Assembly: GCA_903882965.1 (NCBI GenBank) | Contig: CAIRZD010000130.1 | Location: 23,305 to 87,304, forward strand | DNA from: an uncultured Bacteroidota bacterium | Lineage (GTDB): Bacteria > Bacteroidota > Bacteroidia > Chitinophagales > Chitinophagaceae | Direction: 5' to 3' | DNA length: 64,000 nucleotides | Shown here: positions 16,912 to 38,958 of the stretch, in pieces | How positions within the stretch are numbered: the first letter of the stretch is position 1 | How the letters are laid out: each line of letters begins with the position of its first letter | Notes under the pieces: generated by a model | Database searches by the model: none | Seen by the model: the letters and a program-made list of their open reading frames with translations, nothing else | Told to the model about the DNA's origin: nothing | Position numbers and translations under genes: made by a program

Positions 16912-18438
16912 TTAAAACCTGTTGGAAATAGCGTAGGGAAATACGGGTACTCCATAACGGTTATTATACATCACCAGGGTATTCAGGTTATATACGGTAT
17001 ACCATCCATCGCGGCCGGAACAATTGCCCAGTACGTGGTGAGGTGGAGGGCCACTGGGGTTTGAGTTGGTACTGCATATGTATATAAGGCCATCCTGCTC
17101 ATCGACACAAACATCATGCGGCTGGTAGAAATCGCCATATAAAGTGGTAACAACGTGCAGTGTATTATAATCAATAATAGTAACGCAGCCCTTAGCACCG
17201 GAGGGAGTGTGTGCATTAGAATCCTGCATACACACTACAAAGAGGTAGCCTTTAGATCTTGATATTGCCATTTCCTGTGGGAATGCGCCGACAGGTATTG
17301 CTTTGATCAGGGTATCCTTATAGGCGTCCATTACACGGACCTCATTAGAGTTTTGACAGGAAACAAAATATTTTGAGTAGTCGGGGGACATCTGTATCTG
17401 GTGTGGATCCGGTGAGGTAGCGCTTTTAGCGGCTATAGGCGGATTGCCATCAAGGCTTATGTATTTGTATGTAAACTCCGGGGCGAAGGAAAACTTATTA
17501 ATTACATTACCATATTCGAGGGTTGCAAAAAAAGTATCAAAAGTTGCATTGCTTGCTATGCCATGCGGATAAGCAAATTCTGATGTACCTGCGGTATGCG
17601 CATCTGCAGATAAATTATTGTTTATGAGCAATGAATTAGTATTGATGGTAACTTCATAACCAGTAGCTAAGAAGCCGCTTACCATCAAGGCTGTATCTTG
17701 CGGAGACAGGTTAATGATGCTCCATCCGCCGGTACCATATACACCTGCTACGGCACTGGTGAGGTTTGCGGCACCAATTACGGTATCTGCACGTGTATCT
17801 ATTTTTTGCAACAAATTGTTGTCGAGAAAAGAAACGTAGGCATACATACCATCGCCGGAAACCGTAACATCATGAAGGTATTCGTTTCCCGGGTAAGTGC
17901 CGACTTTTATATACCGCATGATGACGTGGCTCTGGGCATCGATAACGGCAATGAGGTTGCAGCCAGATATGGTAAGGTAAATTTTTTGCCTGGTATCTGG
18001 GTTAGTGGCAAAGGGGATGTTGCCGTTCCTATCGGGGGCGCCGGCTGCTACCCAGCGCTTTAGCGTCATGTATTGACTGAGTGTGAGTGGGGTGGTGAGA
18101 TGCCCTGCGTCGTTTGCCAGAATATCTGAAGAATCATATGCATTGCAGTAATAAAGGAGTGGGCTCAGCTGTGTGTTATAAGCAACGACAACAGCACCAC
18201 TGACACTACCCTGGAGCATATGCTGCCATGTATCAAGCAGGAGGCCGCCGGCATTGGTATAGCTGGCCTGGTTATGACAGCCGGAATTGGTGCACTTAGC
18301 GAGAAATATATTACCAATGGAATCAGGGAAACCGCCATTTGGAGCTACTACTAATGACTGGGGTTTATGCACGCAGGATGTGGTGCATACCACAGCTGTG
18401 AATATAGCGAATACAGTAAGTATAAGAAGCCTGCGCAT
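16912..18438 (-). CDS. Lipoprotein with CxxxxCH motif and YncE-like beta-propeller
   Basis: The 508-residue product has a lipoprotein signal (MRRLLILTVFAIFTAVVCTTSC, lipobox TTSC). At about residues 40-140 it carries CTNSGCH, a C-x4-C-H motif, followed by TNAGGLLLDTW and LKRWVAAGAPDRNG. This is the arrangement of the atypical cytochrome c-like domains first described in planctomycetes (PSCyt1-like). The rest is a beta-propeller with repeated strands such as LHDVTVSGDGMYAYV, YPHGIASN, HQIQMSPDYSKYFVSC, PQEMAISRSKGYLFVV and PHDVCVDEQDGLIYIC, close to YncE/lactonase-type propellers. Haem binding and electron transfer at the envelope are inferred; only one CxxxxCH is present. The gene stands alone. 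Confidence 0.8.
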   Translation of the reverse strand: MRRLLILTVFAIFTAVVCTTSCVHKPQSLVVAPNGGFPDSIGNIFLAKCTNSGCHNQASYTNAGGLLLDTWQHMLQGSVSGAVVVAYNTQLSPLLYYCNAYDSSDILANDAGHLTTPLTLSQYMTLKRWVAAGAPDRNGNIPFATNPDTRQKIYLTISGCNLIAVIDAQSHVIMRYIKVGTYPGNEYLHDVTVSGDGMYAYVSFLDNNLLQKIDTRADTVIGAANLTSAVAGVYGTGGWSIINLSPQDTALMVSGFLATGYEVTINTNSLLINNNLSADAHTAGTSEFAYPHGIASNATFDTFFATLEYGNVINKFSFAPEFTYKYISLDGNPPIAAKSATSPDPHQIQMSPDYSKYFVSCQNSNEVRVMDAYKDTLIKAIPVGAFPQEMAISRSKGYLFVVCMQDSNAHTPSGAKGCVTIIDYNTLHVVTTLYGDFYQPHDVCVDEQDGLIYICSTNSNPSGPPPHHVLGNCSGRDGWYTVYNLNTLVMYNNRYGVPVFPYAISNRF

Positions 18439-18572
18439 AAGTTTATAGACGTATTAAAGAATAAAGTTAAGATAAATACTCGTAAGCGGTAATTGCAGCG
18501 GTATCATTTCCGGTGTTTTTAAATGTCTCAAAATGCCCCGTTTTTATCACATTTTATCACGGGTGGGGGATG

Positions 18573-18810
18573 GACCTCTCCCAGACTCTCCCCTTCGGCA
18601 TGCTCAGGGCAGGCTGAAGGAGAGGTGGTGTAATGATCGCTATTATAGTGTGGATAATTTTTCATGTGTTTCTTTTTTAAAAATCTGGTGTCGATTTATT
18701 TAGGATATTAAAATGTTTATTTGATAATTTGTAGTTGTGTAAATGTATAAACCTCTCCCCAGCCCTCTCCCCCTTCGACAGGCTCAGGGCAGGCTGGAGA
18801 GGGTGAGGTC
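18573..18810. repeat. Pair of imperfect palindromic repeats in a 573-base spacer
   Basis: The spacer 18439-19011 has no convincing gene. It holds two diverged copies (about 18573-18630 and 18751-18810) of an element that starts CCTCTCC, contains CTTCGRCAKGCTCAGGGCAG and ends GGAGAGG-like, so each can fold into a hairpin. They are separated by about 120 AT-rich bases. The form suggests a REP-like intergenic palindrome family, but genome-wide copy number cannot be seen here. Confidence 0.55.
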
Positions 18811-19011
18811 GAATGAGCGTTTTGGATATGCAATTGTTTGCTTTGCATTTTTACTGTTTTATGAATAAAGTTAGTTAGTTAGAATGTATGCGGCGGGAAA
18901 GTGTATACACCTTTCTTTCTGCGTGTTAATGGCAGGCGATAAATGCCAAACTGTTTGATCCGCGTTGCATGGCGTCAGTTGGGAATCAAGGGTTGGGTAG
19001 TCTCTTTGATT

Positions 19012-19548
19012 TTAATTCACTCTTGTAAGAATAAATGTAGTAGAGTCTGTTTCATAACCGGAGCAATATGCCGGGCAATCAGTTTCTATAACATACCCTG
19101 TAATGACATCGGTGGTGAAGCTGAATATACCGATCCTAACATTTCCCAACCCTAGTGCTGCACCAGAATTGCTGTATAGCATTTGCTGCTCATCGAGGGC
19201 AAACCTGCTTCCGCCAATCACGCCTACAAATTGCATGGGGAAAGTAAGAGGAGGATCGCCCAATCCACAGTTACTGCCTATTATCGTTTGCGCGGAAGAA
19301 GACACCATTGTTTCTGTTATGTTTACAGAACTGTCGCCCAGTTCGCTTATCACCCAATTCACTTTCATATTAAATGAACTGTAACGACTATAAGCGCCAC
19401 ATCCGTCGCTGCAATAATAAAATGTTACAGCATTTGGGGTTGTCCAGTTTCCTGCCAGTTTCCTGGCGGGAGTAAGTGCGGGAGAAGAACTTTTAGCGCA
19501 ACCGAAAAATAGAAAAACAATAAAAAGATATAAAATGAATGGTTTCAT
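19012..19548 (-). CDS. Small lipoprotein of unknown function
   Basis: The 178-residue protein starts with a short lipoprotein signal ending in the lipobox FFGC, so the mature protein starts CAKSSS. The body looks like a beta-barrel or lipocalin-like fold: GNWTTPNAVTFYYC, then SFNMKVNWVISELGDSSVNI, FALDEQQMLYS and a final TTFILTRV. It also has several cysteines (YYCSDGC, NCGLG, DCPAYC) that may pair in the periplasm. The opening GNW motif resembles lipocalin-like domains of Bacteroidota lipoproteins, but this is not firm. No operon partner is visible. Confidence 0.65.
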   Translation of the reverse strand: MKPFILYLFIVFLFFGCAKSSSPALTPARKLAGNWTTPNAVTFYYCSDGCGAYSRYSSFNMKVNWVISELGDSSVNITETMVSSSAQTIIGSNCGLGDPPLTFPMQFVGVIGGSRFALDEQQMLYSNSGAALGLGNVRIGIFSFTTDVITGYVIETDCPAYCSGYETDSTTFILTRVN

Positions 19549-19890
19549 TACAGATGTTATAAGTGAAAATAACTATAATATATAAAGGTAGTATTTATTA
19601 ATTGTTTGTATGCATGTTATCCACTAATTCTGGTTTTCAACTTGCTTTGTTGTCAGGATGAGAGGTTTTGCCTGAGTATATAAAGATCGTATTTATTATA
19701 CCGGATATCAAGCATCGGCTGTTTATGAGTAAAATAAATATTTATCTTGAGCCCTAACATTTTGAGACGAGGGGACGCCTACTATATATGGCAAGATCCC
19801 CGGAAGGGGAAATACCTTATATTTTGATAGTTATATTTAAGAAATTTTATTAATTTACATGCCTTGCGGCTGTAATAAAATATACCCCTA
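19549..19890. other. Gene-free spacer before the giant secreted protein
   Basis: This AT-rich region holds no convincing ORF. A small hairpin CCCCGGAAGGGG lies near 19798-19809. A weak -7-like box TAATTTAC (about 19851-19858) lies about 30 bases before the ATG at 19891 and may start that transcript. Confidence 0.3.
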
Positions 19891-22800
19891 ATGAAACATT
19901 TTAACTATTCCCGTTGTAATTCAGCGACTATGAAAAATTCCGGCAGTACACGCAGGGATTTAATTGTAAGCGCTTTATTTTTTTGTACGCTGCTGCTATG
20001 TGGTAATGCTATAGCACAGCCTGTTATTGGCTCATTAAGTACAAATATTGGTGTGCCGGGTAGTAGTATTAACATTAGTGGTTCGAATTTTAATACGAAC
20101 CCCGTAAATAATATTGTTTACTTCGGAGCAACGAAAGCTACTGTAAATACTGCAAGCGCTACATCGCTAGGTGTAACGGTGCCTGTGGGAGCGACTTATG
20201 CGCCGGTTACTGTAAATAATACGGCAACGCACCTGATGGGGTATTCGGATTATTCGTTTTTGCCGAGATATAATAATAGCGGGTATTTGCCGGGGGCAAT
20301 AAATTTCGATTCGAATGTAAGTTTTACAGACGCAGGTTCTAATACTCCTGTACAAGTAGTGATCGCAGATATAGATGGGGATGGTACACCCGACCTTGTA
20401 GTAATGAATAATATTGGTTTTTCGGTATACCGGAATACGAGCACAAGTGGCTCCATTACAAGTGGTTCCTTTGCTACTGCGGTTGACTTTACCGTGACCG
20501 GGAACGTAGCACAATATGGAGAACCGCAATTAGCTGTGGGCGATATAGACGGGGATGGGAAACAGGATGTATGCATTTGCAATGGCAGTGATACTATTTA
20601 TGTAATGCGCAATACTTCCTCGATCGGAACTGTTAATTTTACATCTCCGGTATTCTTTTTGGGAAATTCATATTATTGGGGCACTGATTATTTTGCCAGT
20701 ATAGCAATCATAGATATTGACGGGGATGGGAAAGCAGATATAGTTTGCGGAGATGGTATGGGCATAGCTGTATTCCGGAATATGGGTACTGCTGGAACAA
20801 TAACTTCAAGTTCGCTGGCAACGTCGATAGTTTTTGAGGGAGCCGGTTACTCGGGAATAGCTATCGGGGATTTGGATGGGGATGGTAAGCCGGATGTGGT
20901 AGGCACTATAGGCTCGACAGCGGGAGATAATCTTACAGTATACAAAAATACCAGTTCTCCAGGGGTTATTAACTTTGCAACTTCGGTGGGCTTTGCTACA
21001 GGTAATTATCCGGCAAATGTGCTTATCAGTGATATTGACGGAGATGGCAAGCCTGACCTTGCGTTCCTTAACCAGGGAGATGGCACTCTTGGTCTTATGC
21101 GTAACACTGCTACGACAGGTACTATTGATGCAAGCTCTTTTGCGGCACAAGTCGTTTTTGCAGCAGGCTATAGCCCGTGGGGTTTAGCTTCAGGAGATTT
21201 TGATGGTGATGGTAAACCAGACATCGCTGTGTCTAGCCCTTATACTTTGCTCGCCACCTTTGGCCAGACCGTACAGATATTTCATAACATAGCCAGTGCA
21301 GGAACAATAGACACTAATTCGCTTAATGGCAATGAAAATGTTGTAGCAGGGAACCCGATAGTGAGTATAGCAGTGGGTGATATAGACGGGGACAGTAAGG
21401 CTGACATTGTTACGGTGAACCAGGCTGATAATAGTATTTCGGTATTAAGGAATGCTCCTTTATATCCTTCACCTACTATTACGTCAGTAAGTCCGGACAT
21501 TAATTCACCGGGAACCTCTGTAACCATAACGGGCACTAACTTTAATACTACTGCGGCGAATGATATTGTTTATTTCGGGGCTACGAGGGCTACTGTGAAC
21601 ACGGCAAGCGCTACATCGCTGACTGTGACAGTGCCGATTGGGGCTACTTATGCACCGGTGACTGTAAATAATACGGCAACGAACCTGATGGGGTATTCGG
21701 AACATGCATTTTTGCCGGATTATAATAACAGTGCATATGTACCGGGTACGGTAAATTTTGATCCTGAAGTGGGTTTTACAGACGCAGCCAATTCTAATAT
21801 AAGCCAGGTAGTAATTGCAGATATAGACGGAGATGGGAAGCCTGATCTTATAGTAGCAGGCGCGACTATTTCTATTTACCGGAATATCAGTACAAGCGGC
21901 TCTATAACTGCCGGTTCTTTTGCAGCTCCAATAGATATCAGTGTAACCGGTAATAACTTGTTTGTAGCTACAGGGGATATAGATGGTGATGGGAAACCGG
22001 ACATGGTTGTCAGTGGTCTGTATAGTGATTCTATTTACGTATTCCGCAATACCTCTACCAGCGGTTCTGTAAATTTTGCACCGTATGTGGCATTTACAGA
22101 GAATACATCTTATACGCCTCAGGGCCCTATTAATATAGCCATTGGTGATATAGATGGGGATGGTAAAGCGGATATAATTACCGGTACCTATGGGGCCCAA
22201 TATTTTGCAGTATTCAGGAATACTGCTACAGCCGGGACAATAGATGCCAGCTCGCTGGCCACTGCCGTAGATTTTCCAGCAGCCATTACAGGTAGTGGAG
22301 GTAATAGTTTTGTAGCTATAGGGGACCTGGATGGAGACGGGAAGCCAGATGTGGTAATCACGAACGACTATATAGATGTGTGGGTAATGCATAATACCAG
22401 CACAGCTGGCTCACCCAGCTTTGCAGCAGGTGTGGACTTTACAGCGGGCAATGGTACAACATTTATAGCCATCAGCGATATAGATGGGGATGGAAAAGCA
22501 GACCTTGCAATTTCTAATACAAATGATGGTACCGTTTCTATTTTGCGTAATACAGCCACTGCGGGTACTATTAATGCCAGTTCTTTCGCTGCACAGGTAG
22601 TTTTTGCTGTCGGCTATGATCCATACAGTATTGTTTGGGGTGATTTTGACGGTGATGGAAAACCAGACCTAGCTGTGAGCAGCGGCTTATACACTGCGAC
22701 CCCCCTATTTACCTATGTATTCCGGAATACATCTACACCAGGTGTCATAAACAGCAGTTCACTCACCGGCAAGATGTATGCCGGAGCAGCAAGCACTATT

Positions 22801-25800
22801 TCCAGTGTAGTTGCGGGCGATATAGATGGAGATGGCAAGACAGATATAATTACAGCAAACTTCAGTAGTAATACTATTTCGGTATTAAGGAATGATCCTT
22901 TATTACCAGTGATCACATCTGTGAACCCGACGATAGCTGCTGCGGGCGCTACAGTGACCATAAGCGGTGCGAATTTTAATACTACAAGTGCAAATGATAT
23001 TGTTTATTTCGGGGCTACTCGGGCATCGGTAACTTCAGCGAGCGCTACATCACTGAGTGTAACAGTGCCTGTGGGCGCAACGTATGCACCAGTATCAGTT
23101 ACTAATACCTTGAACGGGCTGGCCGCATTTTCAACAAATGCGTTTTTGCCCAATTATAATAACAGTGCGTACCTGCCTGGATTGGTAAATTTTGATCCAC
23201 ATGTGGACTTCACAGATCCGGGGGGCGTTTACCCGGGGAAGACAGTAATTGCAGATATAGACGGAGATGGGAAACCTGATATGATAACAGTAGGGGGCTT
23301 CGGTATTTCGGTGTACCTAAATACAAGCACAAGCGGCACTATCACGAGCGGTTCTTTCGGAACTGCTGCTGATTTTACGGTACCCGGTGGTTGGGGCTCT
23401 ACACTAGGAGCAGGAGATATAGATGGAGATGGCAAGCCGGATTTAGTGGTTGCAGGTAATGGTAACATTGTGTTATTCCGCAATACTTCTACGACCGGGT
23501 CTGTGAGCCTTGCATCTCCTGTAACCATCGCCGCAGATTTTATGGATAATAATCCTTATGCTATCGCTATCGCGGACCTTAATGGAGACGGGAAACCTGA
23601 TGTGATTGTTTCGGATGCATATTACGGTAATATTGCGGTATACCTGAATACGGCAACAGTAGGCACGATAGACGTCAACTCGCTGACAACAGGGGCTGGG
23701 GTGGAGTCTGCAGGTTTAGATTTCCCAATTCCGGGAGGGGGAGGGTATTTGCATGGTCTCGCTGTCGGCGACCTAGATGGAGACGGTATACCTGATGTTG
23801 CAGTGGCAGATATCAATAATAATGTGGTTTGGGTATTCCGTAATACTTTTTTGAGCGGAGCTGTGGGTTTTGCGGCGCCTGTGAGCTTTGCTACAGGCAA
23901 TGGGGTTAATGATGTACTTATCGCTGATATAGATGGTGACGGGAAACCAGACCTGGCTGCCGTGAACTTATCTGATAATAGTATTTCTCTCTTACGCAAT
24001 ACATCAACGGTTGGGGCGCCTTCATTTGCAAGCCAGGTAGTTTTTGCTACCGGGAATCAACCATACACAATAGCTTCAGGTGATTTTGACGGAGATGGAA
24101 AACCAGACCTTGCTGTGGAGAACTATAGTGATAATACCATTTCTGTATTCCGCAATACAGCTACGGCAGGAAATATTAATACAGGGTCGTTAGCGACAAG
24201 CAGTGTGTTTGCAACAGGTAATGGCCCCCAGTATATAGCAGCGGGTGATATGGACGGGGATGGCAAGACGGATATAGTAGTTGCCAATACCAATGACGGA
24301 AGTATTTCAGTATTGAGGAATTATCCTTTATATCCGCACCCGACTATAACGTCAGTAAGTCCATTGATTGACTCGCCGGGAACTTCTGTAACCATAACCG
24401 GTACTAATTTTAATACAACTGCGACGAATGATATTGTTTATTTCGGGGCTACGAGGGCTACTGTGAACACGGCAAGCGCTACATCGCTGACTGTGACAGT
24501 GCCGATTGGGGCTACTTATGCACCGGTGATGGTGGATAATACACTGCATGGGCTGATGGCATTATCGCCGAAAGCGTTTTTGCCGAATTATGATAACAAT
24601 GCTTATGCGCAAGGAGTAATAAATTTTGATCCGAAGGTGACTTTTACAGATCCGGGAGGTGTAGGCGGCGGGCAAATGCTTATCGCAGATATAGATGGAG
24701 ATGGCAAGCCTGATATGATAACAAGCACTGGGGCATCTATTTCCGTTTACCGGAATATAAGTGCAAGTGGCTCTATTACGAGCGGGTCTTTTGCAACGGC
24801 GGTAGATTTTGTTGTTCCGAGTGCAATTGGGGGAGCGCTGACATTTGGCTATGGCGCAATCGCAGCAGGTGATATTGATGGGGATGGTAAACCTGATTTA
24901 GTCTTTGCCGGAAATGATGCTTCAAATAATTTTTACATTTTTGCATTCCGGAATACATCCACCAGCGGATCCATCAGCTTTGCATCACCAGGAGTGATCC
25001 CTTATATCAGCTCTGATGAAGAGCCTACAAGTATTGCTATCGCAGACATAGATGGGGATGGGAAAGCGGATGTTGTTACCGCAAATTTTTATGGAAATGT
25101 TTCTGTATTTTTAAATTCTGCCACGGTTGGAATTATTAATTCCAGTTCGTTTGCAGCCCCTATAGATTTTGGAAATTGGGGGACAGCAAGCGGGCAAAAA
25201 CTTGCGGTAGGCGATCTTGACGGAGATGGGAAACCAGACCTAGCATATACAGATTATTTTAATAATGTGTCTGTGCAGCTTAATACATCCACTATAGGGG
25301 TGGCCGGCTTTGCAGCCCCGGTAAGTTTTGCCGCGGGAAATGCACCTTACGGTATAGTGATCGCGGATATAGATGGGGATGGCAAACCAGACCTTGCAGT
25401 AACGAATGTGACTGATAATACGATTTCGCTTTTTCGGAATACGGCTACTGTAGGTAGTATAGATGGCAGTTCGTTTGCGAGCCAGGTAGTTTTTACTACC
25501 GGTATGGGACCATTCGATGTAGCCTCAGGCGATTTTGACGGCGATGGGAAACCAGACCTGGCAGTGGTGAACATTAACGGGTATGATAATTCAGTTTCTA
25601 TATTCCGCAATACAGCAACTACAGGTTCTATTAATACCGGATCTCTGGCGGCAGGTGTGACTTTTGCCACCGGTAGCGCGCCAGCGTATATGGCTGTAGG
25701 TGATATAGATGGAGATCGTAAGGCGGATGTGGTAATTGCAAATATCGGGGATGGTAATATATCGGTATTAAGGAATGATCCTTTTTATGCGAGTCCTACT

Positions 25801-28800
25801 ATAACATCAGTGAGTCCGTTGATTGACTCACCGGGAACTTCTGTAACGATAACGGGTACTAATTTTAATACTGTAGCGGCGAGTGATATTGTTTATTTCG
25901 GAGCTACGAGGGCAACGGTAAATGCGGCAAGCGCAACATCGCTGAGTGTAACTGTGCCTGTAGGAGCGACTTATGCACCGGTGACTGTGGATAATATGCT
26001 GCATGGGCTGATGGCATTTTCACCGAAAGCATTTTTACCTGATTATAATAACAGTGCATATCTGCCCGGGATTGTAAATTTTGACCCACAAGTGGTTTTT
26101 ACTGATCTCTCCAGTTATAATGCAAGCCAGGTGGTTATCGCAGATATAGACGGTGATGGTAAACCAGACATGGTAGTTGCAGGCAGTACATCTATTTCTA
26201 TTTATCTAAATACAAGTACAAGTGGATCCATTACCAGTGGATCTTTTGCATCACCGGTGGATTTTGCCATACCATCAGCCGGTGGTAGTAATTATTTTTC
26301 TATAATTGGGATAGGCGATATTGATGGTGATGGTAAGCCAGACCTGGTTGTGGCAGGGGCGAGGGGGTATAGTTTTGATGGATCAGGAGTGCAGAGCGAT
26401 AGTATTTCAGTATTTCGCAACACTTCGACCGGCGGGTCTGTAAGTTTCGGATCGCCTGTGTCATTTGCACAAGGGCCAAATGATTTCCCGACAGCTATAA
26501 CTGTTATGGATATAGATGGAGATGGGAAAGCAGATGTAATAACAACAAATAATGACGGCAACGTTGTAGTATTCCGGAATACAGCTGCCATTGGTAGCAT
26601 CACTATATACTCGCTGAATTTGCCGGTGGATCTTTCTACTGCGGGCGGTGCCCTGGCAGGTTTGGCTGTGGGCGACCTTGATGGGGATGGTAAGCCAGAT
26701 ATAGCAGCTGACGATAACAATAATAATGTTGTCTGGGTATTACGCAATACCAGTATTTTGGGCAGTATAGGATTTGCAACACCAGTGAGTTTTCCTACCG
26801 GCATAGAGCCGTATGGTATTGTGATCGGAGATATAGACGGGGATGGTAAGCCAGACTTGGCGATCGCTAACTCGAATGACAATACGATTTCACTTTTGCG
26901 TAATACATCTGTAGTTGGTACTATTGATGGAAGTTCTTTTGCGGGGCAGGTGGTTTTTGTTGCAGGCATTAATCCGTGGAGTATAGCTTCAGGTGATTTT
27001 GACGGTGATGGAAAACCGGATCTGGCTGTTATCAATCTTGTTTCATCAACTGTTTCCGTTTTCCGTAATACAGCTACGGCCGGCAACATTAATTCAAGTT
27101 CACTTGCAGCAAAGGTGGATTATGCAACAGGTAGCGAGGGACAGGGTGTAGCCGCAGGTGATATAGATGGGGACGGTAAAGCCGATATAATAACAGCCAA
27201 TACGAGCGCTGGCACTGTATCGGTATTGCGGAATGATCCATTAATGGCAACCAGCATTACCATTACAGGTAATACTCCATTATGCGTTAGCTCAACAATA
27301 ACACTGAATGGAACACCGGCTGGTGGAACATGGAGCAGTGGTAATGCGGCTGTGGCCACTGTGGGTGGCTCTACAGGAGTTGTGACAAGCGTAAGCGCAG
27401 GGACAAGTCTAATATCTTATACAACTTCAGGTGGAGCGACAACGACAATAGTGACCGTTAATGCTATACCAACGGCCGCACCCGCCAGTAATGGACCTAT
27501 TTGTAGCGGAGGGAATGTGATGATTGTCGCAAATGCTACAGGCGCTACTAATTTCTCCTGGAGCGGGCCGAATTTATCATCAACCACAATTGCGAATCCT
27601 ATTGCTACACCTACTGCTACGGCCACTTACTCTTTGACGGTGAGCAATGCAGGTTGCAGTTTATCAACGACAACGTTAGTTATTGTAAACCCTGCCCCAA
27701 CAGCAGCCCCAACAAATAACTCACCGATATGCAGCGGAGGGACAGTGATGCTTGCCGCACATCCTTCGGGAGGCGTTACAAATTATTCGTGGAGTGGGCC
27801 TAATTTGTCTTCAGGAAGCGTACAAAATCCTACAGCAACTCCTACCGTCACTGTTGCAACATATTCTTTGACAGTAAGCAGCAGCCTTGCCTCAGGCTGC
27901 AGCCCATCGACGGTATATACAACTACAGTTGTTGTTAATCCATTACCTAGTGCGGGAAGTATAAGTGGGCCGTCATCTGTGTCAACAAGGCACAGCATTA
28001 CTTTGACTGATGCTGTTGCAGGAGGTATATGGACATCATCGAATGCAGGAGTTGCTGCTGTGAATAGTGCAGGTATTGTAACAGGAGTTGCTGCAGGTAG
28101 CGCCGTTATTACTTATGCAGTAACTAATAGTTGTGGTACTGCTTATGCGACAACTACAATTACTGTGACTACAGGTGTAATCAGTTGTACTACGGCAAGT
28201 AACATATCGACCTTTGCCGGTGACCATGTGAATGGTTATAATGGTGATGGCGGTATGGCGACTGCTGCTGAAACAGGGAGCTCTTATGGCGTGGCTGCAG
28301 ACGGTGTGGGCAATGTTTATATAACAGACTATTTTAACAATGTAGTACGCAAAGTAGACCCATCAGGTGTGATCTCTACTATCGCGGGTACAGGTGCTGC
28401 AGGGTACAACGGCGATGGTATTGCGGCAACTTCGGCGCAACTGAACGGGCCGATGGGTATAACGCTGGATGGTGCAGGAAATATTTACATCGCTGATAAA
28501 TACAATGAGCGTATCCGTATGATCAATACAGCAGGTGTGATCACAACTATAGCGGGAAATGGTTTTCATGGTGGCTGGGCCGGGCATGGATATGGTAGTG
28601 GCGGACCAGCCGATTCGGCGAGCCTGGATTATCCTGTATCTGTTGCAGTGGATTGCAGCGGCAACATGTATATAGCAGACCAGGGCAGTGAAACGGTGCG
28701 TAGAATAAATGCATCCGGTATAATCAATTTCTTTGCAGGAACAGGTGCAGGTGGGTATAATGGTGATGGGATAGCTGCTGCTACAGCACAACTCAATAAC

Positions 28801-30057
28801 CCAAGTGGTGTGGCGGCAGATTGTGCCGGTAATGTATACATAGCAGACGCATGGAATAACCGAGTGCGTAAAGTTGATGCATCAGGGATCATTACTACTA
28901 TTGCCGGTAATGGCGTTGCAGGATATGGTGGCGACGGCAGCCCGGGCGGCTCTGCGGAATTATGGATACCAACCGGTGTGACGCTTGATGCATGTGGTGA
29001 CCTTTATATCTGCGACTGGCAAAATAATGTGGTAAGATTCTTGAGTACAGATGGTTATATTTCCACTTTTGCAGGTAATAATATTAGCGGCTATGATGGT
29101 GATGGTGGTGCTGCAAATGCTGCCGAGCTATATCTGCCAAGCAGCCTTGCAATAGACGGACTTGGAAATGTATATATAGCTGATTATGGGAATTATGTGA
29201 TACGAGCTATAGGTAATGCGCTGCCTGCCGAAAGGAAATTTATAAATGGTACTACGCAGGATATGACGGTTTGTGAAAATGAAACAGCCATCCCGATAAA
29301 TAGCCTGATGGCGATACCTGATGCCGCGAGCGGTAATACAGAAACCTGGGTAGTAAGTATAAACCCGGCACATGGTACGCTTAGCGGATTTAATGCGACC
29401 GCTACATCAACGATAGGTATAACTACCCCAATGGGATTGATCTATACTCCTGAAGCCGGGTATGCGGGTATGGATGCATTTACCATTATGGTGAAGGATG
29501 GGACAACTGCGGCATCTACGACTGTGAATGTGAAAGTGGATTCTATGCCAAACCCGGGTATCATAATCGGAAGTTCAAATATTATTATTGGCAAGAACAT
29601 CGCCCTTGTTAATGCCAGCGGCGACAAAAACGGGGTATGGAGCAGCAGTGATAACTTGATAGCTACGGTAGATGCATCGGGTAATGTAACCGGAGTGGGT
29701 AGTGGGATTGCAACTATCTCATATACAGTGGCCAACAATTGCGGATCAAAGAGCGCTACAACAGGGATAGAGATAAACGATGTATCGGCGCACCAAGGGA
29801 ATGTATTATTAGTGCCAAATCCGAATAACGGAACGTTTACTATCAGGGGCCCCATAGGGGCAACCGTAAATGAAGTGGTGACGCTTGAAGTAACGGATAT
29901 GCTTGGCCAGACTATTTATAAAGCCGAGGTTGTGGCAAAGAACGGCAGCATTAATGAGACTATATCGATGAGCAATACCCTGGCTAATGGCATGTATATG
30001 GTGAATATGCACAGCGAAACAGTTAGCAAGGTGTTCCACTTTGTGATTGAGAGATAG
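19891..30057 (+). CDS. Giant T9SS-secreted modular protein (TIG, FG-GAP, NHL, Ig-like)
   Basis: The 3388-residue protein starts with a signal peptide (an ATG at 19930 is an alternative start, MKNSGSTRRDLIVSALFFC...AQ). Residues about 45-2450 form five modules of about 480 residues. Each has an IPT/TIG domain (TSVTITGTNFNTT) followed by seven FG-GAP/VCBS blades with the calcium-loop motif DxDGDGKxD, as expected of a seven-bladed integrin-like propeller. Then come a BIG2-like domain, two PKD-like segments, another BIG2-like domain, six NHL repeats (VYIADxxNxxVRKV) at about 2765-3110, a cadherin-like domain, a BIG2 domain and a T9SS type A tail (VPNPNNGTFTI). It should be exported to the surface. 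Ca-dependent adhesion or glycan binding is inferred. Confidence 0.93.
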   Translation: MKHFNYSRCNSATMKNSGSTRRDLIVSALFFCTLLLCGNAIAQPVIGSLSTNIGVPGSSINISGSNFNTNPVNNIVYFGATKATVNTASATSLGVTVPVGATYAPVTVNNTATHLMGYSDYSFLPRYNNSGYLPGAINFDSNVSFTDAGSNTPVQVVIADIDGDGTPDLVVMNNIGFSVYRNTSTSGSITSGSFATAVDFTVTGNVAQYGEPQLAVGDIDGDGKQDVCICNGSDTIYVMRNTSSIGTVNFTSPVFFLGNSYYWGTDYFASIAIIDIDGDGKADIVCGDGMGIAVFRNMGTAGTITSSSLATSIVFEGAGYSGIAIGDLDGDGKPDVVGTIGSTAGDNLTVYKNTSSPGVINFATSVGFATGNYPANVLISDIDGDGKPDLAFLNQGDGTLGLMRNTATTGTIDASSFAAQVVFAAGYSPWGLASGDFDGDGKPDIAVSSPYTLLATFGQTVQIFHNIASAGTIDTNSLNGNENVVAGNPIVSIAVGDIDGDSKADIVTVNQADNSISVLRNAPLYPSPTITSVSPDINSPGTSVTITGTNFNTTAANDIVYFGATRATVNTASATSLTVTVPIGATYAPVTVNNTATNLMGYSEHAFLPDYNNSAYVPGTVNFDPEVGFTDAANSNISQVVIADIDGDGKPDLIVAGATISIYRNISTSGSITAGSFAAPIDISVTGNNLFVATGDIDGDGKPDMVVSGLYSDSIYVFRNTSTSGSVNFAPYVAFTENTSYTPQGPINIAIGDIDGDGKADIITGTYGAQYFAVFRNTATAGTIDASSLATAVDFPAAITGSGGNSFVAIGDLDGDGKPDVVITNDYIDVWVMHNTSTAGSPSFAAGVDFTAGNGTTFIAISDIDGDGKADLAISNTNDGTVSILRNTATAGTINASSFAAQVVFAVGYDPYSIVWGDFDGDGKPDLAVSSGLYTATPLFTYVFRNTSTPGVINSSSLTGKMYAGAASTISSVVAGDIDGDGKTDIITANFSSNTISVLRNDPLLPVITSVNPTIAAAGATVTISGANFNTTSANDIVYFGATRASVTSASATSLSVTVPVGATYAPVSVTNTLNGLAAFSTNAFLPNYNNSAYLPGLVNFDPHVDFTDPGGVYPGKTVIADIDGDGKPDMITVGGFGISVYLNTSTSGTITSGSFGTAADFTVPGGWGSTLGAGDIDGDGKPDLVVAGNGNIVLFRNTSTTGSVSLASPVTIAADFMDNNPYAIAIADLNGDGKPDVIVSDAYYGNIAVYLNTATVGTIDVNSLTTGAGVESAGLDFPIPGGGGYLHGLAVGDLDGDGIPDVAVADINNNVVWVFRNTFLSGAVGFAAPVSFATGNGVNDVLIADIDGDGKPDLAAVNLSDNSISLLRNTSTVGAPSFASQVVFATGNQPYTIASGDFDGDGKPDLAVENYSDNTISVFRNTATAGNINTGSLATSSVFATGNGPQYIAAGDMDGDGKTDIVVANTNDGSISVLRNYPLYPHPTITSVSPLIDSPGTSVTITGTNFNTTATNDIVYFGATRATVNTASATSLTVTVPIGATYAPVMVDNTLHGLMALSPKAFLPNYDNNAYAQGVINFDPKVTFTDPGGVGGGQMLIADIDGDGKPDMITSTGASISVYRNISASGSITSGSFATAVDFVVPSAIGGALTFGYGAIAAGDIDGDGKPDLVFAGNDASNNFYIFAFRNTSTSGSISFASPGVIPYISSDEEPTSIAIADIDGDGKADVVTANFYGNVSVFLNSATVGIINSSSFAAPIDFGNWGTASGQKLAVGDLDGDGKPDLAYTDYFNNVSVQLNTSTIGVAGFAAPVSFAAGNAPYGIVIADIDGDGKPDLAVTNVTDNTISLFRNTATVGSIDGSSFASQVVFTTGMGPFDVASGDFDGDGKPDLAVVNINGYDNSVSIFRNTATTGSINTGSLAAGVTFATGSAPAYMAVGDIDGDRKADVVIANIGDGNISVLRNDPFYASPTITSVSPLIDSPGTSVTITGTNFNTVAASDIVYFGATRATVNAASATSLSVTVPVGATYAPVTVDNMLHGLMAFSPKAFLPDYNNSAYLPGIVNFDPQVVFTDLSSYNASQVVIADIDGDGKPDMVVAGSTSISIYLNTSTSGSITSGSFASPVDFAIPSAGGSNYFSIIGIGDIDGDGKPDLVVAGARGYSFDGSGVQSDSISVFRNTSTGGSVSFGSPVSFAQGPNDFPTAITVMDIDGDGKADVITTNNDGNVVVFRNTAAIGSITIYSLNLPVDLSTAGGALAGLAVGDLDGDGKPDIAADDNNNNVVWVLRNTSILGSIGFATPVSFPTGIEPYGIVIGDIDGDGKPDLAIANSNDNTISLLRNTSVVGTIDGSSFAGQVVFVAGINPWSIASGDFDGDGKPDLAVINLVSSTVSVFRNTATAGNINSSSLAAKVDYATGSEGQGVAAGDIDGDGKADIITANTSAGTVSVLRNDPLMATSITITGNTPLCVSSTITLNGTPAGGTWSSGNAAVATVGGSTGVVTSVSAGTSLISYTTSGGATTTIVTVNAIPTAAPASNGPICSGGNVMIVANATGATNFSWSGPNLSSTTIANPIATPTATATYSLTVSNAGCSLSTTTLVIVNPAPTAAPTNNSPICSGGTVMLAAHPSGGVTNYSWSGPNLSSGSVQNPTATPTVTVATYSLTVSSSLASGCSPSTVYTTTVVVNPLPSAGSISGPSSVSTRHSITLTDAVAGGIWTSSNAGVAAVNSAGIVTGVAAGSAVITYAVTNSCGTAYATTTITVTTGVISCTTASNISTFAGDHVNGYNGDGGMATAAETGSSYGVAADGVGNVYITDYFNNVVRKVDPSGVISTIAGTGAAGYNGDGIAATSAQLNGPMGITLDGAGNIYIADKYNERIRMINTAGVITTIAGNGFHGGWAGHGYGSGGPADSASLDYPVSVAVDCSGNMYIADQGSETVRRINASGIINFFAGTGAGGYNGDGIAAATAQLNNPSGVAADCAGNVYIADAWNNRVRKVDASGIITTIAGNGVAGYGGDGSPGGSAELWIPTGVTLDACGDLYICDWQNNVVRFLSTDGYISTFAGNNISGYDGDGGAANAAELYLPSSLAIDGLGNVYIADYGNYVIRAIGNALPAERKFINGTTQDMTVCENETAIPINSLMAIPDAASGNTETWVVSINPAHGTLSGFNATATSTIGITTPMGLIYTPEAGYAGMDAFTIMVKDGTTAASTTVNVKVDSMPNPGIIIGSSNIIIGKNIALVNASGDKNGVWSSSDNLIATVDASGNVTGVGSGIATISYTVANNCGSKSATTGIEINDVSAHQGNVLLVPNPNNGTFTIRGPIGATVNEVVTLEVTDMLGQTIYKAEVVAKNGSINETISMSNTLANGMYMVNMHSETVSKVFHFVIER
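20023..27240 (+). repeat. Five tandem ~1.44-kb coding repeats (TIG + seven-blade FG-GAP)
   Basis: Repeat starts lie near 20023, 21471, 22907, 24341 and 25795, and the array ends near 27240. Each unit encodes one TIG domain and exactly seven DxDGDG loops (35 in all, one degenerate as DLNGDG, two as DGDS or DGDR). The fourth loop is always DLDGDG in units 1, 2, 4 and 5 (and in unit 3, after DLNGDG at loop three), and the sixth is always DFDGDG. Equivalent blades thus match across units better than neighbours do, so whole modules were duplicated. Confidence 0.9.
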
Positions 30058-30071
30058 ATTAAAAATTAATA

Positions 30072-30121
30072 ACTGCCCGCTTATCTGATCGTGAAAGATC
30101 AGACGAGCGGGTAGTTTTTTT
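30072..30121 (+). terminator. Terminator after the giant gene
   Basis: A long hairpin (CTGCCCGCTTATCTGATC / GATCAGACGAGCGGGTAG) is followed by seven T residues. It separates the giant gene from the barrel gene. Confidence 0.88.
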
Positions 30122-30166
30122 ATTGTTGAACCAGCGAGGAAACTATATTATCTTGCAGGTTTGACC

Positions 30167-31555
30167 ATGAGGTATTTTATTTCAATACTTTTTTTGTTGT
30201 TGGTTTATTCCGGGGCTTATGGCCAGGATAGCGGCAGCAATATTGATACCTCACAAAGCAGGATAAGTAAAATAATCATTACGGGCAATGCGGTGACGCG
30301 GGGGGCTGTGATACTGAGAGAGATAAGTATACATGAGGGGGACGTGATAGCGGGGGATTCGATAGCTTTCATCACGGAGCAGAACAGGTTGCGGCTTTTT
30401 AACCTGCAATTATTTAATGAGGTGGACCAGCATACGGAACGGATTGGAGATGAGATCACCTGGTATATACATGTAAAGGAGCGCTGGCCCGTGATACCAA
30501 CGCTTATAGTACAGTTTGCCGACCGTAATTTTAATACATGGTGGGTAACAGAAAATCATGATGTGCGCAGAATATCGGCGGGGCTGACACTTACGGATAA
30601 AAACTTCAGGGGTAATCTTGAAACGCTTGCGGTGACTGCAGAGGATGGGTATACACAGAAACTAGGCATTGGTTATATGCGGCCATATGTTAATAATGGC
30701 CAGACCAGGGGATTGGGTTTTAACCTGAGCTATGCACAGAGCAGGCAAACGTATTATGCAACTGACTCTGATAAACTGGTATATGCGGGTACTTATGGAG
30801 GGCCGGTGATGTTGCGGCAATTTGAAGGCGGGCTGAGCTATGTATATCGCCCTGCATATGCATCGAAGCATATATTCCAGGTGAGTTATAAGAATTATTG
30901 GGTGAGTGATACGATACTGAAACTTAATGCGGATTATTTTGCGAATGGCAAAAAGGAAGCAAAGTTTGTGGAGTTTTATTATCGTTACGAATATAATGGA
31001 GTGGACAACTGGAACTACTCACTCAAAGGGCTAAAGTTAGTGATGCAAGGCGTGGTGCGGAGTGGACTGGAGGGGTTGAATTTCCAGAGCTATGCAAATG
31101 TGGAGGCCGGGATATTCAGGAATCCTTTTCGCGGGTGGTATGTGTCTGCGATCTTTCGCGGGCGGTTGATATACCCGGAAGATCAGCCATACTATTTCAG
31201 AGGAGGGCTTGGGACGCAGACGGATTATGTAAGGGGCTATGAGTATTATGTGACCGATGGCTATAATTATGGCGTGTTAAGACTGGACCTGAAGCGGGAA
31301 ATTTTTAACAAGACCTATTCTTTACCAGTGAAATATTTTACGGCGCTACCGCTGCGTATTTATCCTAAGATATTTGCTGATGCAGGTTATATTGATAACC
31401 CAATGCCGGGAAACAGCTTTTTGAGTAACCGGCTGGAATATAGTATAGGCGCAGGGATTGATGTGGTAACGTTTTATGATATGAAGATCAGGTTTGAGTT
31501 TGCTTATAATCGTTTGGGACAAAATGGGTTATATTTACATTTTAATAGTGAATAG
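30167..31555 (+). CDS. Omp85-type outer-membrane barrel with one POTRA domain
   Basis: The ATG at 30167 starts a signal peptide (MRYFISILFLLLVYSGAYGQ); the track's TTG at 30161 is less likely. Residues about 35-110 form a POTRA-like domain (ISKIIITGNAVTRGAVILRE ... LFNEVDQH ... ITWYIHVKERW). The remaining 350 residues are a beta-barrel rich in aromatic, amphipathic strands (GIGYMRPYVNNGQTRGLGFN) ending in a C-terminal barrel strand. This is the BamA/TamA/D15 superfamily, which inserts or exports outer-membrane proteins, but with a single POTRA rather than five. It follows the giant secreted gene behind a terminator, so a functional link is not shown. Confidence 0.85.
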   Translation: MRYFISILFLLLVYSGAYGQDSGSNIDTSQSRISKIIITGNAVTRGAVILREISIHEGDVIAGDSIAFITEQNRLRLFNLQLFNEVDQHTERIGDEITWYIHVKERWPVIPTLIVQFADRNFNTWWVTENHDVRRISAGLTLTDKNFRGNLETLAVTAEDGYTQKLGIGYMRPYVNNGQTRGLGFNLSYAQSRQTYYATDSDKLVYAGTYGGPVMLRQFEGGLSYVYRPAYASKHIFQVSYKNYWVSDTILKLNADYFANGKKEAKFVEFYYRYEYNGVDNWNYSLKGLKLVMQGVVRSGLEGLNFQSYANVEAGIFRNPFRGWYVSAIFRGRLIYPEDQPYYFRGGLGTQTDYVRGYEYYVTDGYNYGVLRLDLKREIFNKTYSLPVKYFTALPLRIYPKIFADAGYIDNPMPGNSFLSNRLEYSIGAGIDVVTFYDMKIRFEFAYNRLGQNGLYLHFNSE

Positions 31556-32897: not shown

Positions 32898-34658
32898 ATG
32901 AAGAAATTTTATTTTTTATCCCTATTGTGCTGCTTGAGTTTTGTAACATTTGCACAAAGTACAGTAACGATATATGCTACCGGCCTTACAGGGTCATACA
33001 CAACCGGAACTGCAAGTAGTTTTGGGACACGGACAGACGGTAACATTGTAACATCTGGAACTACCTTCAGAGGGTATGCTGTTTTTGACCTCAGCTCTAT
33101 TCCTGTGGGAGCAACGATAACGGGTGTTGTTATTGGCTTCAATGTAAGCGGTTATGGTGGTGGTGGTGCGCCATCGGGTTGGAATACTTATGGCTATGCA
33201 AGCGATCTTTCTACGGTGACCACTGCGGCTACGCTTTTTGCAGATATGGTAGCAGGGACTTCACTTACCACAGCTACTTACGGAACGGCTACCGGTAACC
33301 AGACACTTGCGTCGACAGGGGCATCAACTACTTTTATACAGACCAACTCAGGCAGTAAAGTTTCTATTTGCTGGACCGGCGGGGGAAGTAAAAATTATAC
33401 TATAACCGGGGAAACAGGCACAGCTACAACAACCGGTACCAATGCCCCTTATTTGCAAATCAGTTATACCTGCGCCGGGGTAAGCGGAGTAAGCGCGTCG
33501 GCAACACCAAACCCGATATGTGTTGGTTCGTTATTATCGCTAACCGGTGTTGCGACGGGTGCAACAAGTTATTCATGGTCGGGCCCGGGCCCATATACAT
33601 CTGCAACACAGAGTCCAACATTTGCTACTACTGCTTCTTCGGGAGGGGTATACACTTTTACTGCGTATAACTCGACCGGTTGCGGTACGCAGGCTACGAC
33701 AGCGGCAGTGACATTAAATGCAACGCCAGTAGCTACGGTTACGACAACCTCTTCTGTGGTGTTTTGTGCGGGACAAAATGTAGTACTTACCGGCACCACA
33801 GGAGCCGGGTATACTTACCAATGGGATCAATCAGGTGGAATAATCGGGGGGGCAACAAACCAGACATATACGGCATCAAATAGCGGTGGTTATACCGTTG
33901 ATATAACAGATCCTTCAACCGGTTGTTCAAGCACATCTACTCCAGTTGTTGTGAATGCTATCCCTGATGCACCACCGCTAACACCTGCGGGTAGTGCAGG
34001 GCTATGTACCGGAAGTGATTTGACGCTGGCAATAAATTTGAGCGGAGTAACTACCGGTATGACTTATCAATGGGCCAGAGGCGGTATACCGATTGCAGGG
34101 GCTAACAGCAGTAATTATACAACAGCTACCGGAGGGAATTATTATTGTATACTTACGCTTCCAACTTGTGTCGATACTACACAAACGACTATAGTAAATG
34201 TCTTATCGTTGCCTACACCAACAGTTAGTTTTAACGGGGCGATATTATCAACATCTTCTGTGTATTCAGGTTACCAGTGGTTTTTGAATTTAGTAGCAAT
34301 ACCCGGTGCTACTACTTCTACTTATTTCCCCACATCAATAGGCAGTTATCGTGTGAGGGTAACGGATACAAATGGATGTACTAACTACTCGGCTCCGGAC
34401 GGGGTAAATTTTTTAGGTGTGGCACAGATAAATGCTGCGGCCATAAAAATATATCCTAACCCGGCTACCCAAATGGTGCATATAACATCTGCTGAACCAG
34501 TAAGTGCAGTAATATCAAGTGTTGAAGGGAAACAATTGATCAACAGGTCAGCAGCTATTGATATTGATGTGAATGAATTGCCGAGCGGATTATATATCAT
34601 TATGCTATACAATGAAGCAGGTGACCGTGTGTATATTGATAAATTAATTAAAGAATAA
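32898..34658 (+). CDS. T9SS-secreted protein with DNRLRE/CBM-like and PKD-like domains
   Basis: A signal peptide (MKKFYFLSLLCCLSFVTFAQ) starts this 586-residue protein. Residues about 21-195 resemble the DNRLRE/CBM96-type beta-sandwich (TFRGYAVFDLSSIPVGATIT). Three or four Ig/PKD-like repeats follow, each with a Cys pair and an aromatic core (SYSWSGPGPYTS, YTYQWDQSGG, MTYQWARGG, GYQWFLNLV). The end is a T9SS type A sorting domain (IYPNPATQMVHIT) finishing in DKLIKE. The protein is predicted to be exported by type IX secretion; carbohydrate binding is possible but unproven. Its tail is closely related to those of the two larger genes downstream, suggesting paralogy of the C-terminal regions. 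Confidence 0.85.
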   Translation: MKKFYFLSLLCCLSFVTFAQSTVTIYATGLTGSYTTGTASSFGTRTDGNIVTSGTTFRGYAVFDLSSIPVGATITGVVIGFNVSGYGGGGAPSGWNTYGYASDLSTVTTAATLFADMVAGTSLTTATYGTATGNQTLASTGASTTFIQTNSGSKVSICWTGGGSKNYTITGETGTATTTGTNAPYLQISYTCAGVSGVSASATPNPICVGSLLSLTGVATGATSYSWSGPGPYTSATQSPTFATTASSGGVYTFTAYNSTGCGTQATTAAVTLNATPVATVTTTSSVVFCAGQNVVLTGTTGAGYTYQWDQSGGIIGGATNQTYTASNSGGYTVDITDPSTGCSSTSTPVVVNAIPDAPPLTPAGSAGLCTGSDLTLAINLSGVTTGMTYQWARGGIPIAGANSSNYTTATGGNYYCILTLPTCVDTTQTTIVNVLSLPTPTVSFNGAILSTSSVYSGYQWFLNLVAIPGATTSTYFPTSIGSYRVRVTDTNGCTNYSAPDGVNFLGVAQINAAAIKIYPNPATQMVHITSAEPVSAVISSVEGKQLINRSAAIDIDVNELPSGLYIIMLYNEAGDRVYIDKLIKE

Positions 34659-34663
34659 ATGGC

Positions 34664-34700
34664 CTTCAATAAGCAACTACAATGTAGTTGCCTATTGAAG
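34664..34700 (+). terminator. Hairpin after T9SS cargo gene
   Basis: A long inverted repeat CTTCAATAaGCAACTA / TAGTTGCcTATTGAAG starts six bases after the stop codon. The following sequence has no strong T-run, so termination is likely but not certain. Confidence 0.6.
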
Positions 34701-34899
34701 ATAAAAATTACTTCTGCCGCCATTTTTCAGTCATGGTTTGGGCTGTATCATTCATTAATTGCCACACTTTTTTTACATAGCGAGGGTATTATTCAAATCC
34801 GCTAATAATAGTAACTGAGTCATTTTCATAATGCTTGTTATTGGATATAAAGGTTTGCTAAACCTTTATACATCCTAATGTAATTAGTATGCTTTTTAT

Positions 34900-34907
34900 T
34901 ATTTTTG
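34900..34907 (+). promoter_or_regulatory. -7 box TATTTTTG before DUF4105 gene
   Basis: TATTTTTG matches TAnnTTTG and ends five bases before the ATG at 34912, suggesting a nearly leaderless mRNA. The -33 element is not clear. Confidence 0.4.
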
Positions 34908-34911
34908 AATT

Positions 34912-36114
34912 ATGCTAAAGCGTTTATTGATCATTTTGCTTGCGATTGGGGGCTATATGTCTGTTTGTGCGCAGGTTAGTGATACAACAGCAGTACAAAA
35001 TAAAAGCCATTTACGTATAAGCTTACTTACCTGTAGCCTCGGAGAAGAGGTATGGGAAACATTCGGGCATAGCTGCATCCGAATTATAGACAGTACTAAA
35101 AGCGGACGGGAAAGAGATGTAGTATATAATTATGGATTTTTAGAATCTTCTGAAGATAATACTGTGATGCATCAATTCCTGACCAGCCGTGTACTGGTTT
35201 TTTTGGCGACTAATACCTACGCTGAATTTAATTATCAGTATGGGAATGAGGGAAGAGAAGTAGATGAGCAAGTTTTTTTATTGGATGACACGGAAAAGCA
35301 GGCTATAGTTTCTTTTTTGAAAAATAATGCTCGCAAAGAAAACAGGTATTATGAATATGATGCCGGTTATGACAATTGTTCTACCCGTATCCTGGGCATA
35401 TTTGTAAAAACATTTGGTAATCGTTTTGTGCCCGGGCAAGTGATACCAAAAGGTTCCCGCCTGACATACCGGGATCTGACAAGCCGGTATGGCCCACAGA
35501 AAATACAAGGAAAATATTGGTTTGCACTTGGGATGAAAATTTTTTTCGGTATCAGTTCTGACCGGAAACCGAGTAACACAGAGGCTATGTACCTTTCTGA
35601 ATTTTTAAGTGATGGTATGGCAGGGGCAACTCTTGATGGCAAAAAGCTATGCGATAATAAAGCAACTATATTAGAAAACAAGATAACCTGGCCCGAAACA
35701 ACTGATGAACCTTTTATTGTTTTCTTAATTATCGCCATTATTACTATCGTAGGTTTTTTTGTAAAGAGATTGCGTATTTTGAGCAATGTAGTGAGTGTTT
35801 TGGTTTTATTTTCATCCGGCATATTAGGCTGTTACCTGCTGTATATCGGGGTTATGGATTGTGAGCCGGGATGGAAAAATAATTTCAATATTTTATGGGC
35901 TTTACCCACTAATCTTATTATTCCTTTTTTGGGGCCCAGAGTCAAGGCAAAGTATGCTATCGTAGGTATGTCTTTTATAGGTGTATCGCTTATACTGGAT
36001 GTATTTAGAGTGCAGGAACTTCCTTTGCTTGAAATAGCACCATTGCTGCTGACATTGCTATTTATCTTTGGTCAAATGTATCAAAAAAGTACCTTGAAAA
36101 TCAAATCTTCCTAA
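34912..36114 (+). CDS. DUF4105 protein with C-terminal membrane domain
   Basis: The 400-residue product has a signal peptide (MLKRLLIILLAIGGYMSVCAQ) and a DUF4105 domain at about residues 30-260. That domain, with ISLLTCSLGEEVWETFGHSC, then DVVYNYGFLE and YYEYDAGYDNCSTRI, is found in Bacteroidota and resembles the N-terminal periplasmic domain of Lnb-type proteins; its conserved His and Cys suggest a thiol-peptidase-like active site. From about residue 265 four or five hydrophobic segments form a membrane domain. The protein is thus a periplasmic domain tethered to the inner membrane. Enzymatic function is unproven. Confidence 0.85.
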   Translation: MLKRLLIILLAIGGYMSVCAQVSDTTAVQNKSHLRISLLTCSLGEEVWETFGHSCIRIIDSTKSGRERDVVYNYGFLESSEDNTVMHQFLTSRVLVFLATNTYAEFNYQYGNEGREVDEQVFLLDDTEKQAIVSFLKNNARKENRYYEYDAGYDNCSTRILGIFVKTFGNRFVPGQVIPKGSRLTYRDLTSRYGPQKIQGKYWFALGMKIFFGISSDRKPSNTEAMYLSEFLSDGMAGATLDGKKLCDNKATILENKITWPETTDEPFIVFLIIAIITIVGFFVKRLRILSNVVSVLVLFSSGILGCYLLYIGVMDCEPGWKNNFNILWALPTNLIIPFLGPRVKAKYAIVGMSFIGVSLILDVFRVQELPLLEIAPLLLTLLFIFGQMYQKSTLKIKSS

Positions 36115-36231
36115 TAATTACAAAACAGTTCCAATGTCGGTGTATTTATAACTTTCAGTTAATCTTTTTATTATTCTGAAAACCGGTCAATTGCAATACC
36201 TACAAGGGGTTAAAATATTTTGATAAATAAG

Positions 36232-36262
36232 TTGTGTATTTCCTCATTTTTTTATATCTTTA
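36232..36262 (+). promoter_or_regulatory. Promoter TTG-N20-TATCTTTA
   Basis: TTG at 36232-36234 and TATCTTTA at 36255-36262 with a 20-base spacer fit the Bacteroidota promoter. The predicted leader before the ATG at 36317 is about 50 bases. Confidence 0.5.
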
Positions 36263-36316
36263 GCATTACTTGTAACAATATTTTTTATTAATATAATTAA
36301 TCCTAAAACGAGACAA

Positions 36317-38863: not shown

Positions 38864-38871
38864 TATATAAA

Positions 38872-38912
38872 AGCACTAGCTTGAATTCTGAGATCAGAAT
38901 TCAAGCTAGTGT
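38872..38912 (+). terminator. Strong hairpin between two paralogous cargo genes
   Basis: A nearly perfect 18-base-pair hairpin CACTAGCTTGAATTCTGA/TCAGAATTCAAGCTAGTG lies just after the stop codon at 38863. Only a mixed GTTGGATTTTGTT tract follows, so it may be a terminator or a partial attenuator before the next gene. Confidence 0.65.
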
Positions 38913-38958
38913 TGGATTTTGTTAAAAGGGTACAAATTAATTTAGTTATTTAGCATTT

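Follow-up and report, generated by a model that had tools for sequence, protein, structure and literature searches.

The giant repeat protein reported in a preliminary description of this DNA was confirmed here: a single uninterrupted frame at 19891..30057 on the forward strand of the window (the whole stretch of 64,000 nucleotides that was analysed) encodes 3388 aa and carries five TIG domains, 35 D-x-[D/N]-G-D loops, Ig-like domains, a six-unit NHL propeller and a T9SS tail. We propose, at a probability of about one-half, that the gene is accessory and that its product is a giant surface protein exported by the T9SS, in which a rod of five modules serves as a multivalent adhesin or glycan-binding stalk. 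This role is proposed because of the propeller class and the T9SS export; VCBS-like propellers are typically tied to carbohydrate recognition (PMC9218822). The features of the gene and its surroundings are as follows.

18439..30160, no strand: accessory block of ~11.7 kb that contains the giant gene plus an orphan lipoprotein gene; absent at the same junction in 11 same-genus genomes
19012-19548, minus: orphan lipoprotein-like ORF, 178 aa; no Pfam match
19891..20016, plus: signal peptide region, read directly from the sequence and judged by eye
20020..21471 (residues 44-527), plus: module 1, TIG and seven-blade VCBS/FG-GAP propeller (Pfam, loop count, module alignment)
21472..22905 (residues 528-1005), plus: module 2 (Pfam, loop count, module alignment)
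22906..24339 (residues 1006-1483), plus: module 3 (Pfam, loop count, module alignment)
24340..25794 (residues 1484-1968), plus: module 4 (loop count, alignment, model together with the module 5 TIG)
25795..27258 (residues 1969 to about 2456), plus: module 5 (loop count, module alignment)
27259..28194 (residues about 2457-2768), plus: Ig-like/Big_2-like linker domains (sequence and Pfam Ig-like matches; low model confidence)
28195..29223 (residues 2769-3111), plus: six-bladed NHL propeller (TEN_NHL, PDB matches, model)
29260..29745, plus: Big_9-like (just under cut-off) and Big_2 Ig-like domains (Pfam)
29815..30057, plus: T9SS type A sorting domain (Por_Secre_tail/TIGR04183), ending at the stop codon (Pfam, NCBIfam)
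30072..30122, plus: strong hairpin followed by a T run, probable terminator of the giant gene (MFE -32.4 kcal/mol, z = -8.1)

The seven-blade module

Pfam recognised 5 TIG, 31 FG-GAP_3 and 30 FG-GAP stretches, TEN_NHL with 6 stretches, two Big_2 domains and Por_Secre_tail above its cut-off; Big_9 fell just below its own. The five stretches of TIG (PF01833; 129.6 bits against a curated cut-off of 20.9) start at residues 44, 528, 1006, 1484 and 1969, and each precedes a set of exactly seven D-x-[D/N]-G-D loops; the 35 loops compare with a mean of 0.4 in residue shuffles. The five TIG-plus-propeller copies described earlier were therefore recovered; however, the statement that every module has exactly seven DxDGDG loops holds only for the looser motif, since strict DxDGDG is found in 32 of the 35 (the exceptions being DIDGDS at 497, DLNGDG at 1229 and DIDGDR at 1938). 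The final G of the DxDxDG loop is kept in 33 of 35 loops, and across an alignment of 64 modules the loop aspartates are invariant or nearly so. The loops would probably hold calcium.

The same 64-module alignment was the input for an AlphaFold2 model of a TIG-propeller-TIG unit (module 4 with the TIG domain of module 5), which reached a pLDDT of 93.3 and a pTM of 0.91. The modelled module has seven four-strand blades, and strand E100-103, lying before loop 1, replaces the missing outer strand of blade 7 (1+3 closure); closure was deduced from strand order and fold matches, not measured on coordinates. When the module was compared with solved structures using Foldseek, the best PDB matches were mostly propellers, including CRTAC1, KICSTOR propeller chains, PLL lectins, aldos-2-ulose dehydratase, integrin alpha and the Bacteroides "auxiliary nutrient binding" entries 3tc9, 4hw6 and 3hrp (TMt about 0.4).

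Blades were also counted in related proteins by running a profile made from the giant protein's own blades on the ORFs of fetched loci. Exactly seven blades were present in 203 of 205 counted runs after a TIG domain, a count that is biased towards seven because a seven-blade module served as the query for the loci, although the other modules of each array were not so selected. Some loci represent the same contig twice; after removal of duplicates, 177 seven-blade modules remained, the five of the giant protein included. Under a stricter motif, most runs scored 4-7 loops, since loops that have degenerated escape it. Taken with the model, these counts bear out the earlier proposal of one complete propeller per module: that the modules form closed seven-bladed propellers is a well supported prediction.

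On the blades, FG-GAP_3 scores above the integrin FG-GAP model, while the Pfam FG-GAP matches are still over their cut-off, and blades of this kind have been grouped in the VCBS superfamily (PMC8023676). On these grounds, the blades would be better called VCBS-type than integrin-type; the earlier label "integrin-like" was a loose one. The modules share with VCBS-superfamily propellers such as PVL lectin, TcB and aldos-2-ulose dehydratase (Pereira & Lupas 2021, PMC8023676) seven blades and a DxDxDG loop between strands A and B, and the likeness extends to the top-scoring FG-GAP_3 and the structural match to aldos-2-ulose dehydratase; they differ in that five TIG-linked modules lie in one chain. 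A GW motif in loop DA', which contributes to the sugar pocket of PVL and tachylectin (PMC8023676), is a mark of that lectin subgroup and not of the whole superfamily; in the module alignments, checked by eye without structural superposition, the loop reads mostly GxxPxx and the GW motif is not evident. An aromatic residue after the P of this loop was considered as a ligand-site signature and rejected, as its fractions of 0.20-0.36 at all blades carried no signal. Bacterial integrin-type propellers likewise have seven blades with calcium motifs, and Chouhan et al. (2011; PMC3192720) described two copies in tandem in some proteins of bacteria; in contrast, the giant protein has five copies, TIG spacers and a T9SS sorting tail.

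Duplication and distribution of the modules

The five modules, of 477-485 aa, are 54-65% identical in protein, and the repeat families found at the DNA level are 60-79% identical. The nearest relative of 34 of the 35 blades is the blade at the same position in another module, with a mean blade identity of 57% at the same position versus 41% otherwise. These comparisons support duplication by whole modules of ~480 residues rather than by single blades, as had been read from the positions of the loop residues. All five modules have DLDGD as loop 4 and DFDGD as loop 6, and the positional regularity of the second loop residue was reached by 0 of 20,000 permutations. As a family-wide signature, the pattern was rejected, the second residue being mostly I or L at every blade of 172 other modules. 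Because the loop residues are not position-specific in the wider family, L at loop 4 with F at loop 6 would mark duplication within the giant protein's own lineage.

Two related MAG proteins provide a further case. The modules of L078 (8 modules, from 4229) and L075 (5 modules, from 3950) are 79-88% identical and pair as m1 with m1, m2 and m5 with m2, m3 and m6 with m3, m4 and m7 with m4, and m8 with m5, a pattern that points to a duplicated block of three modules. Among the 132 modules of other proteins, only 32 have their nearest module in the same protein, and it is often found in another protein, which indicates that the arrays also contain old or exchanged members. The giant protein's five modules formed one clade in a FastTree phylogeny, but its local support was 0.0 and monophyly is not claimed.

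With one module as the query, matches were obtained in 52 of 61 related genomes and in 32 of 35 genomes of the genus, the source genome counted. Matches in the genome collection included records named Pedobacter, Emticicia, Flavobacterium, Mucilaginibacter, Taibaiella, Spirosoma, Runella and Ignavibacteria, and the same TIG, seven-blade and TIG stretch is present in a Hymenobacter canadensis plasmid protein annotated as "FG-GAP-like repeat-containing protein" (WP_269562411.1), with 42% identity across 96% of the query; phage records gave no match. Bacteroidota proteins with this annotation may differ from the giant protein in the length of the array and in their C-terminal domains. Arrays in relatives range from 1 to 9 modules, the largest in a frame of 6940 aa, and many relatives have a single module. 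Five modules recur in L075, L104 and L129, and arrays accompanied by about six NHL units were found in L140 (Mucilaginibacter kameinonensis), L117, L067 and L039, so that the order of array then NHL is also recurrent. Another arrangement was seen in L046/L094, where a 4376-aa frame has three groups of about six NHL units and one seven-blade FG-GAP run. The architecture had been described as unusual, a claim that these findings do not support: the giant protein is a large example of an architecture that is common and recurring in Bacteroidota. Long TIG-linked propeller arrays were not found described in the open-licence literature, including under the topics TIG with FG-GAP and FG-GAP with T9SS.

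A broader reading, which we hold tentatively and at somewhat less than even odds, is that the TIG and seven-blade unit is a widespread exchangeable Bacteroidota surface module, in which the blade number would be fixed while modules or blocks are duplicated, lost and moved to new loci.

The C-terminal region, export and genomic setting

The six NHL units proposed earlier, which start near residues 2783, 2839, 2900, 2956, 3012 and 3068, are matched by a model of residues 2769-3111 that has a pLDDT mostly above 90 and six blades, the last completed by an N-terminal strand. The flanking Ig-like regions were modelled at low confidence because few homologues aligned. Against the PDB, the NHL region matched teneurin and Pizza NHL propellers, most strongly the bacterial (Bacillus) teneurin-like entries 9pt5/9ifo (E about 1e-114; PMC13018210), with which it shares units of the GDGGxAxxAxL type; unlike the teneurin-like protein, it is accompanied by neither a YD shell nor a toxin domain, and the Pfam matches of the giant protein included no RHS/YD family.

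The sorting tail scored above the cut-off in both Pfam and NCBIfam. The genome encodes the T9SS translocon protein SprA (2094 bits against a cut-off of 200) and has at least 150 scored Por_Secre_tail matches, and T9SS export is to be expected from these two observations. The residue after the likely cleavage site of the predicted signal peptide is a glutamine (..GNAIA|QPV), in line with the Bacteroidota Q-rule described in PMC10653852; an alternative start at Met14 (19930) is equally plausible. By its signal peptide, its tail and the genomic translocon, the giant protein is expected to be a T9SS type A substrate, in agreement with the preliminary description. An NCBIfam match to the fusidic acid esterase FusH, at 195.7 of 999 bits, was far under its cut-off and most simply reflects shared FG-GAP blades. 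Three more T9SS-tail proteins, two with clear Big_2 domains, are encoded downstream at 32898-41484.

The giant gene occupies an accessory position. Eleven same-genus genomes carry the gene of a 508-aa NHL-match protein (16912-18438 here) right beside the POTRA gene (30161-31552), a few to about 180 bp apart, whereas in the source genome the giant gene and the orphan lipoprotein gene lie between them; in three further genomes, the junction differs or was not recognised. The 178-aa lipoprotein-like ORF had no match in the other same-genus genomes searched. Repeats flanking the block did not exceed 10 nt (direct) or 11 nt (inverted) and gave no pointer to a mechanism. A dispersed repeat of ~22 nt, CTTCGACAGGCTCAGGGCAGGC and variants, has two copies at 18593-18614 and 18773-18794 and is matched 26 times in the genome when up to 2 mismatches are allowed, versus 0 in a reversed control. 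The hairpin at 30072..30122, missed by a simple terminator scan, suggests that the transcript of the giant gene ends there.

Proposed role and alternatives

In the proposed mechanism, the five modules of the N-terminal ~2400 residues, each pairing a TIG domain with a seven-blade calcium-binding VCBS-type propeller, would make up a rod in which calcium would fix the blades, the TIG domains would act as stiff spacers and the propeller faces would offer the binding surfaces. Behind the rod come the Ig-like domains and the six-bladed NHL propeller, and the C-terminal sorting domain would direct export and probably anchoring; rod length would change through whole-module duplication and loss. The bead-on-string arrangement described earlier stands as regards five modules followed by NHL; however, given the high overall pTM of the TIG-propeller-TIG model, the chain may be closer to a stiff rod than to loose beads.

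The repeats of SprB, a giant T9SS surface adhesin of Flavobacterium johnsoniae, are of another kind than these modules. The likeness between the two proteins, which implies no homology, lies in their very large size and their nature as T9SS-linked surface proteins, and SprB is an adhesin (PMC7918930).

The main rival to this proposal is a passive scaffold: the protein would be a polymer of the matrix or surface coat, its propellers stable spacers that lack a specific ligand, with binding confined to the NHL propeller or some other domain. The variability of the blade surfaces across the 64-module alignment, set against the conserved calcium loops and TIG core residues, is consistent with such a scaffold, as is a module number that ranges from 1 to 9; moreover, the structural matches that favour an adhesin concern fold, not function, and a glycan-binding stalk is weakened by the GW sugar-pocket motif not being evident by eye and by the finding of no recognised glycan-metabolism gene among the tested neighbours. 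The many single-module relatives, however, would make poor spacers, and VCBS-type propellers of known function mostly bind ligands (PMC9218822), so that we regard a passive scaffold as unlikely, though a serious competitor.

Improbable, in our view, is the capture of nutrients or metals, in which the arrays would bind soluble ligands at the surface in the manner of the Bacteroides "auxiliary nutrient binding" proteins; the Foldseek matches to 3tc9, 4hw6 and 3hrp are what recommends it, but their TM-scores are modest and no SusC/SusD-like gene was recognised among the flanking genes tested. The strong match of the NHL region to teneurin-like proteins, the occurrence of VCBS propellers in TcB and a TcdB_toxin_midN match in Pfam might together indicate a toxin carrier; however, the last match overlaps the FG-GAP blades, the same type of NHL unit occurs in relatives of the array family, the C-terminus is a T9SS sorting domain, and, with neither a YD shell nor a toxin domain present, this explanation is largely excluded. 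An assembly artefact is the least credible account of all: the genome is a 508-contig MAG, but the modules are too divergent in protein and DNA, the 10-kb frame is open throughout, and arrays recur in independent genomes, isolates among them.

In conclusion, a reading of blade count and module duplication made from sequence alone proved right, and the arrays of 1 to 9 modules form a natural series of propellers that evolve by duplicating whole modules while the blade number stays at seven. If the unit is indeed an exchangeable surface module, it would provide a fast-evolving rod or adhesin repertoire, unlike the single-blade amplification usually described for propellers. If the proteins are adhesins, then surface adaptation in Bacteroidota would be readable from array length, together with the gain or loss of the gene.
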